Below, in pieces: positions 44,701-47,700 of a DNA stretch of 64,000 nucleotides. Within the stretch, counting starts at the first letter, position 1; every line of letters begins with the position of its first letter. The position numbers and the translations under genes were made by a program. Below the pieces are notes generated by a model. It ran no database searches. It had not been told where the DNA came from and saw nothing but the letters and a program-made list of their open reading frames with translations. This DNA is from Brachyhypopomus gauderio (Eukaryota > Chordata > Actinopteri > Gymnotiformes > Hypopomidae), in NCBI RefSeq assembly GCF_052324685.1, contig NC_135221.1, positions 23,685,989 through 23,749,988 of the forward strand, given 5' to 3'.

Positions 44701-47700
44701 TTCATATGGTTTTTAGTGCCCTCTTGTGGTTGAACAGCAGAGCTCCAGAAGCAGTCACAGAACTCTTTTTTTAATATATATGGTCAGATTCAAAACAAAT
44801 GGGTTAAAACCTTCTAAGAGCTGTTAGTCTTTCATGTAGATGAATTAAATTCAGCTTCAGAGTCAACAAAGCTGTCAAAGGGTGTAGGGTTATTGGATAC
44901 TTTTGATTAGGCAAGATATTTTGTTCTTATATTTATATTTTTATATATTAACAACCCACTTTTGCATGGCAATGAATCAGAAAGTTTGCAAATAGTAATT
45001 GGTTAAAACTTGCTTATGTAATATGTGTGAATTCATGTCCCTGTCCCTTCTGTCACCATTATAGGAGAGACCAGAGAAGAGAGAACATTCAGGAACTGGA
45101 TGAACTCACTGGGTGTTAATCCTCACGTCAACCACCTATATGTGTAAAAAAAAAAAAAAAAGTTTCTTTGTAAAATCCTGATTGTGTGACTTCACTTCAT
45201 GTGTCCATATACCTTCTGTATAAATTATAGATTTATTTCCCCCTTTTATCTTATTTTATTTGTCTGGATCTCACTGCTTTTGATCACTCTTCGTCTCTCC
45301 ATCACTCTTCCTCACAGTGATCTCCAGGATGCCATGGTCATTCTTCAGCTGTATGAGAAGATTAAGGTTCCAGTTGACTGGAACAACAAAGTCAATAAGC
45401 CGCCGTACCCCAAGATTGGGACCAACATGAAGAAGGTAGCGTCATGTCCACCTACACAAATACATGTTCAAGTATTCTATGGAAGAACCTGCAGCTGTCT
45501 TAAATAAGGAAATGTCACCACAGTGTCTGCAGTTCAGTTCATCTAAATTCCTTACATGCATCTTATACATTCCTCACATGCACCTTATTACCTGTCTACG
45601 TTTTTGTTCTGTTTAAGCTCTGCCACACCTGCGCTAGGAATCTAAATGCCGTAGAGTTGCATAATGTACTAGTGTTATCAAGGTTAAACATGATAACTTG
45701 ATATTTTTAACCATACTTGGTTGAAAAGGAAGTAAAGTATAAAATGCTAGTTTCCTAGATTTGATGTAGACAATGGACAATGTTGGGCTGAAAGGGGCTC
45801 ACTAATCCACTCAAGATGTAAACGTATTGGTGCTGATTACATACTGGTGCTGATGTGATTACATACTGGTGATTACATACTGGTGCTGATGTGATTACAT
45901 ACTGGTGCTGATGTGATTACATACTGGTGCTGATGTGATTACATACTGGTGATTACATACTGGTGCTGATGTGATTACATACTGGTGATTACATACTGGT
46001 GCTGATGTGATTACATACTGGTGATTACATACTGGTGCTGATGTGATTACATACTGGTGCTGATGTGATTACATACTGGTGATTACATACTGGTGCTGAT
46101 GTGATTACATACTGGTGATTACATACTGGTGCTGATGTGATTACATACTGGTGATTACATACTGGTGCTGATGTGATTACATACTGGTGCTGATGTGATT
46201 ACATACTGGTGATTACATACTGGTGCTGATGTGATTACATACTGGTGCTGATGTGATTACATACTGGTGATTACATACTGGTGCTGATGTGATTACATAC
46301 TGGTGATTACATACTGGTGCTGATGTGATTACATACTGCTGATTACATACTGGTGCTGATGTGATTACATACTGCTGATTACATACTGGTGCTGATGTGA
46401 TTACATACTGGTGCTGATGTGATTACATACTGGTGATTACATACTGGTGCTGATGTGATTACATACTGGTGATTACATACTGGTGCTGATGTGATTACAT
46501 ACTGGTGCTGATGTGATTACATACTGGTGATTACATACTGGTGCTGATGTGATTACATACTGGTGCTGATGTGATTACATACTGGTGATTACATACTGGT
46601 GCTGATGTGATTACATACTGGTGATTACATACTGGTGCTGATGTGATTACATACTGGTGATTACATACTGGTGCTGATGTGATTACATACTGGTGCTGAT
46701 GTGATTACATACTGGTGATTACATACTGGTGCTGATGTGATTACATACTGGTGATTACATACTGGTGCTGATGTGATTACATACTGGTGCTGATGTGATT
46801 ACATACTGGTGATTACATACTGGTGCTGATGTGATTACATACTGGTGATTACATACTGGTGCTGATGTGATTACATACTGGTGATTACATACTGGTGCTG
46901 ATGTGATTACATACTGGTGCTGATGTGATTACATACTGGTGCTGATGTGATTACATACTGGTGATTACATACTGGTGCTGATGTGATTACAGCTGGAAAA
47001 CTGCAACTATGCTGTGGATCTGGGGAAGAAGATGGCCAAATTCTCCCTGGTGGGTATCGGAGGTCAGGATCTGAACGATGGAAACCCCACCCTGACCCTG
47101 GCTCTCGTCTGGCAGCTGATGAGGAGGTGAAGCTGAAGAATTTCACACATGCCCAAATCTTACCACGCTTCCATTTTACACACGCTTAGGGTCTCTGTGG
47201 CGTGACGTATAGACATGGACTGGGTGCTCTGCTGGAAACAGTGTTTTTGACATTGCTGGTTTTCTGTTGCCTCTTGTACTCGGTGGTGTTTTAGATACAC
47301 CCTCAATGTACTGGAGGACTTGGGAGAAGGTGAGAAGGCGAACGACGATATCATCATCAACTGGGTCAATAGGACTCTGGCAGGGGCAGGAAAGTCGACC
47401 AAAATTTCAAGTTTCAAGGTACCAAATGAAACCACATGCAATTATGTTCTTAGCAGCATTATGAAAGACGAGTCGTCTTTCAGACTGTATTGCTGCAAGT
47501 GATTCAGGTGATACTTCTGTCTGCTTTGTCACACATTGCAAGACCGTAATGTAACTGAATCTGTTTGTGGCCTTGGGCTTCTAGGACAGAGAGATCAGCT
47601 CTAGTTTGGCAGTGCTGGACCTCATCGACGCCATCCAGCCAGGCTGTGTTAACTATGAGCTGGTGAAGACTGGAACCCTGTCTGATGAGGACAGGCTGGA

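Follow-up and report, generated by a model that had tools for sequence, protein, structure and literature searches.

How does an intron come to end in a long tandem array that repeats a branch-site-like motif and has no AG before the acceptor, and how could such an intron be spliced? The question is raised by the plastin-3 (pls3) gene of Brachyhypopomus gauderio, which lies in a 64,000-nt stretch of contig NC_135221.1 (assembly GCF_052324685.1; referred to here as the window, whose numbering is used throughout). The features of the intron and of its flanking exons are as follows.

45318..45435, plus strand: upstream plastin-3 exon, ending NMKK (plastin-3 protein match and sequence)
45436-45437, plus strand: donor GT, directly 3′ of the exon ending NMKK
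45436..46992, plus strand: plastin-3 intron, 1,557 nt, phase 0 between the K and L codons (sequence and protein match)
45814..45815, plus strand: last AG upstream of the acceptor (sequence)
45821..45834, plus strand: degenerate left edge of the array, read by eye, the first GATTACA starting at 45835
45835..46991, plus strand: minisatellite, 61 units and a terminal GATTACA (TRF and unit parsing)
46940..46946, plus strand: branch-site-like TGCTGAT, putative branch A at −47 (counted from the acceptor G)
46976..46982, plus strand: branch-site-like TGCTGAT, putative branch A at −11 (counted from the acceptor G)
46991..46992, plus strand: acceptor AG (sequence)
46993..47126, plus strand: plastin-3 exon, 134 nt, its translation ending LMR, followed by two bases of a split codon

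Between 35.4 and 48.2 kb of the window, plastin-3 exons follow one another in order and cover residues 25 to 629 of the human protein (frame joins assessed visually), with no match to human residues 1 to 24 among the exons of the window. The exon at 46993 encodes CH-domain sequence, as the original prediction had it: queries made of manually joined exon translations matched plastin-3 chain 7r94_F from a solved structure (E = 2.2e-50) and the Pfam CH domain (E = 4.9e-22). From this coding conservation, we infer that the exon is spliced via the AG at 46991-46992. Skipping it would shift the reading frame, and the array contains 33 or 34 stops in each frame, so that a full-length product would need correct splicing here. 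Elsewhere in the window, a long open frame at 54766-56253 on the plus strand encodes a cyclic-nucleotide-gated channel with ion transport, cyclic-nucleotide-binding, and C-terminal zipper domains, and open frames at 16527-17662 on the minus strand presumably represent fragments of a Tc1/mariner-type transposase, going by visual inspection of the list of open reading frames.

The frameshift and the stops are also what a harmful array would exploit: decoy branch sites might lower inclusion of the exon or cause retention of the intron, and this would then be a length-variable, partly defective allele. According to the available part of PMC5954066, the length of an intronic VNTR in ABCA7 goes along with skipping of the next exon, and two other plastin genes (see below) could supply redundancy. 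However, the exons of this gene match human plastin-3 in order over residues 25 to 629, and we consider a weakening effect of the array unlikely.

The minisatellite makes up about three quarters of the intron. It had been described as an array of 22-bp units, which is correct for 37 of them (GATTACATACTGGTGCTGATGT, counted between successive GATTACA starts), but the units come in two lengths, the other 24 being 14 bp long (22 read GATTACATACTGGT and 2 read GATTACATACTGCT) and equivalent to the 22-bp unit minus 8 bp. The change from GGT to GCT that sets the last two apart is the sole substitution type among the 61 units, a near-identity expected for a recent expansion. Head-to-tail units in the range of ~10 to 100 bp, present in many copies and at high identity, are characteristic of a minisatellite. 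The 14-bp units are never adjacent to each other (p = 1.6e-7 under random order), and growth therefore probably proceeded by composite blocks. The periods given by TRF are 36, 94, and 130 bp. Read backwards, the last 16 units give the same succession of long and short ones as the first 16, with all units in the same direction; this mirror order was seen post hoc and is probably due to chance.

A 24-base unit pattern had 34 exact matches in the 796.5-Mb genome (repeat counts being lower bounds), all 34 of them inside the array, and its reversed control had none; by this exact-pattern test, which diverged copies would escape, the array occupies one genomic place and has no dispersed family. Derivation of the unit from neighboring sequence was rejected in each comparison. 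Against the exon, the unit aligns locally over no more than 7 bases, a result reached by 93 of 500 shuffles, and matches as good as those to the first 60 bases of the exon, to the upstream intron, and to the previous exon were obtained with 141, 371, and 446 of 500 shuffles, respectively.

At its 3′ end, the array behaves as originally described. It runs unbroken into the acceptor of the 46993 exon, without any spacer, and its last unit, GATTACAG, stands in perfect register with the others up to the acceptor. The register ends at 46991 and breaks at 46992, so that the acceptor AG is split, its A inside the register and its G outside. Tandem arrays are error-prone, and the window includes a run of exactly 500 N at 1104-1603 (an assembly gap or a withheld stretch), which would fit an array that has been collapsed, expanded, or misjoined to the exon. 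However, there is no N in the array, unit lengths follow one another in an irregular order, as if read through, and the flanking exons are in order; an assembly artefact is thus very improbable.

The absence of AG from position 45816 to the acceptor was confirmed: the AG-free run, bounded by the AGs at 45814-45815 and 46991-46992, is 1,175 nt long, the longest in the window, and constitutes a large AG exclusion zone (at least 100 AG-free nt before an acceptor). The other 13 acceptors located in the plastin-3 gene have 21 to 85 AG-free nt upstream. CC and TC are also missing throughout the zone, and AA and CG are missing except at the left edge (45821-45824). Such gaps are expected of an array of one short unit, and the lack of AG therefore does not imply that AG was kept out. 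When sequences of the same composition are shuffled, a fraction of 0.15 of 22-mers and 0.045 of 36-bp pairs are AG-free. An array of 61 units is not a chance event, but a unit that lacks AG is not rare. The idea that the units had been kept AG-free was not borne out, as one founder sequence suffices for 61 units with one substitution type. Since that is the only type seen, a test for selection on AG absence has no power, and the candidate was dropped.

Minisatellites are dense in this genome. Thirty-seven arrays of at least 100 bp (periods 7 to 150, with the top-scoring of overlapping arrays kept) were found in 264 kb, a small and non-random sample of 20 stretches of 10 kb (two on each of ten contigs, at 1 and 5 Mb) together with the window. 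The other 36 arrays lack AG in 7 of 72 strand readings; among arrays of at least 300 bp, this is the case in 1 of 22. The 1,175-nt run is by far the longest in the 264 kb, the next being 322 nt on the plus strand and 417 nt for CT (AG on the other strand), which counts against an entirely ordinary reading. Further large minisatellites in or near the plastin-3 gene are located at 31266-32135 (28-bp units), 41711-42397 (49-bp units), and 13672-15242 (16/38-bp units), so that the region as a whole is rich in them.

The motif TGCTGAT occurs 40 times in 45816-46992. It had been assigned to the units in general; every 22-bp unit indeed contains it, but only 2 of the 24 14-bp units form it (together with the next unit), and one more copy is found at the left edge. 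It fits YNYURAY, the branch-site consensus quoted in the available part of Gooding et al. (PMC1431707), which has 40 matches in the zone and 418 elsewhere on the plus strand of the window. The candidate adenosines nearest the acceptor are located 11, 47, 69, and 91 nt before its final G, and the full motifs at −11 and −47 do not differ from those farther upstream. Relative to the usual branch-point distance of 18 to 40 nt, −11 is close and −47 slightly far. With candidates this near, a distant branch point is not needed.

The acceptor itself is weak. The pyrimidine fraction at positions −20 to −5 is 0.50, below that of every other acceptor located in the gene (0.56 to 0.94 in the 13 others), and no pyrimidine run in the final 50 nt exceeds 2 (the longest runs are 4 to 17 in the others), in agreement with the earlier remark that there is no pyrimidine tract. 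This weakness, together with 40 full YNYURAY matches within an AG-free zone, would suit a functional array in which the TGCTGAT ensemble replaces the missing tract and the AG-free state is under selection. Branch-point ensembles have been described for other exons (PMC2715136, available part). In its explicit form, this reading makes the array a redundant landing pad for the U2 snRNP, with copy-number-dependent inclusion of the exon, and AG-free since any AG downstream of the used branch point would become the acceptor; we regard that proposal as improbable. As many as 11 of the 66 single substitutions in the 22-bp unit would create an AG, yet the units show no trace of AG purging, only their one substitution type. 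Shuffled 22-mers are AG-free at the frequency given above and match TNCTRAY in 2.6% of cases, and a unit copied from beside an acceptor would be expected to contain the native branch site anyway. Selection for a working branch-site ensemble is thus unlikely.

RNA structure offers another way to do without pyrimidines: self-pairing repeat RNA might draw a distant branch point near the AG and make the pyrimidine-tract factor dispensable. U2AF2-independent splicing was reportedly described by Lin et al. in 2016. Structured zebrafish introns of this kind are cited in the available part of PMC9508853, and the last 150 nt of the plastin-3 intron with 30 nt of the exon fold better than 200 of 200 dinucleotide shuffles (z = −5.45). 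However, this result did not survive the control in which shuffled units are set in the real order: in 73 of 200 such arrays (51 of 200 if the units are AG-free) the folding was equal or better, so that repetition alone accounts for it. When the ensemble was computed for the final 400 nt and 60 nt of the exon, pairing covered the AG most of the time (unpaired 0.04 and 0.20), and among the branch adenosines listed in the folding model the one at −11 was the most accessible (unpaired 0.58). Pairing beyond that due to composition and repetition, as in U2AF2-independent structured introns, was not found; structure was rejected as the working principle, and an acceptor driven by it is highly unlikely.

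The paralogous plastins provide a view of the same intron end without the array. Of 14 candidates scored in a comparison of the exon protein with its own genome, three matched at an E value of 0.001 or better: the 46993 exon and two other plastin genes, L030, which is taken as lcp1 from an aligned LCP1 chain, and L031, presumably pls1. Both have an acceptor at the same codon as the 46993 exon (the donor side was seen for L030 alone), with 56% pyrimidines and 27 AG-free nt in L030 and 69% pyrimidines and 44 AG-free nt in L031. In the 1.5 kb upstream of these acceptors, TRF found no comparable tandem array; it reported a TG run before the previous exon of L030 and, for L031, an 18-bp unit present twice at a distance of about 1.2 kb. 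The L030 acceptor, which precedes an LENCNYAV exon on the reverse strand, is rather pyrimidine-poor and has TGATT twice, and a further AG follows a CA run 29 nt upstream. The plastin-3 intron end (30 nt, the last 4 left out) aligns best with that of L030 among 15 compared, a score reached by 23 of 2,000 L030 shuffles, and the L031 intron end does not stand out in the same test; with two paralogues tried and scoring chosen by the analyst, this is a weak lead to a possible ancestral intron end common with L030.

Taken together, these observations probably reflect neutral growth: a minisatellite that arose at a weak acceptor, expanded by tandem duplication, and is spliced from a branch point in its last few units. 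The array would have been built by tandem duplication right at the 3′ end of the plastin-3 intron, the duplicated segment having presumably ended at the A of the acceptor AG. At each internal junction, ACA would then lead into the initial T of the segment, and the native G would be met by the final copy alone. With the register broken between A and G, plain duplication gives AT inside the array and AG only at its end, a pattern that requires neither mutation nor selection. The bases before acceptors are usually AG-free, and their copies would be so as well, with no selection on individual units. Splicing to the AG at 46991-46992 would start from a branch adenosine close to the end of the array, within its last few units, where the motifs at −47 and −11 are the best matches, and the remaining copies of the motif would be spare intron sequence. 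Pyrimidine-poor acceptors lean on AG recognition and exon signals, and this one presumably does the same.

Counted in favor of neutral expansion are the near uniformity of the array, its presence at one place, and its register up to 46991, as well as the lack of an array in L030 and L031, with their 27 and 44 AG-free nt. Counted against it is the position of the −11 and −47 motifs outside the usual range of branch points. As for the original proposal that the intron's own acceptor segment was amplified, the terminal unit in perfect register fits it, but so would spread of an array from upstream; the sequence is consistent with both.

If the exon is spliced as we suggest, the intron offers a natural test of branch-point choice among many equal copies without a pyrimidine tract. 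If the expansion was neutral, a duplication that ends inside an AG makes a long AG-free zone without selection, which calls for caution with methods that read AG-free zones as signs of distant branch points.

Among known systems, the interferon-induced 6-16 gene reportedly has a minisatellite at an exon-intron boundary that gives several donor sites; the likeness lies in the exon-intron boundary, whereas there the array is on the donor side and its units carry the splice site itself. In the available part of Gooding et al. 2006 (PMC1431707), the large AG exclusion zones include one of 1,126 nt before a human PTPRS exon (in an intron of 1,132 nt), one of 590 nt in Fugu PTB, and a human zone of 369 nt that comes from an AG-lacking repetitive element and has its only good branch site at −17. 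The plastin-3 intron resembles these human exons in its long AG-free stretch before the acceptor, and the length of its zone has a printed human precedent in PTPRS. However, the distant-branch-point exons described there have a candidate branch site and a pyrimidine tract toward the far end of the zone, whereas in plastin-3 the motif recurs throughout and no pyrimidine tract is found near the acceptor. The CUGBP2-regulated exons (PMC2715136, available part) have several branch sites near one acceptor, three of them mapped; the 40 motif copies in plastin-3 are candidate sites that arose by tandem repetition. In titles and abstract beginnings of the open-licence literature, no description of a branch-site minisatellite that ends in an acceptor was found among the matches listed. 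The plastin-3 array combines an AG-free zone with a splice-site minisatellite, in that it ends in the acceptor and repeats a branch-site motif. A close parallel for the second of these is the VNTR in intron 18 of ABCA7, a minisatellite of 25-bp units whose first two bases form a splice donor and whose length correlates with skipping of the neighboring exon (PMC5954066, available part). Both are intronic minisatellites that adjoin or include a splice site, the ABCA7 array including the donor and the plastin-3 array ending in the acceptor, and by this analogy the plastin-3 array is most likely the acceptor-side counterpart of the ABCA7 donor minisatellite.
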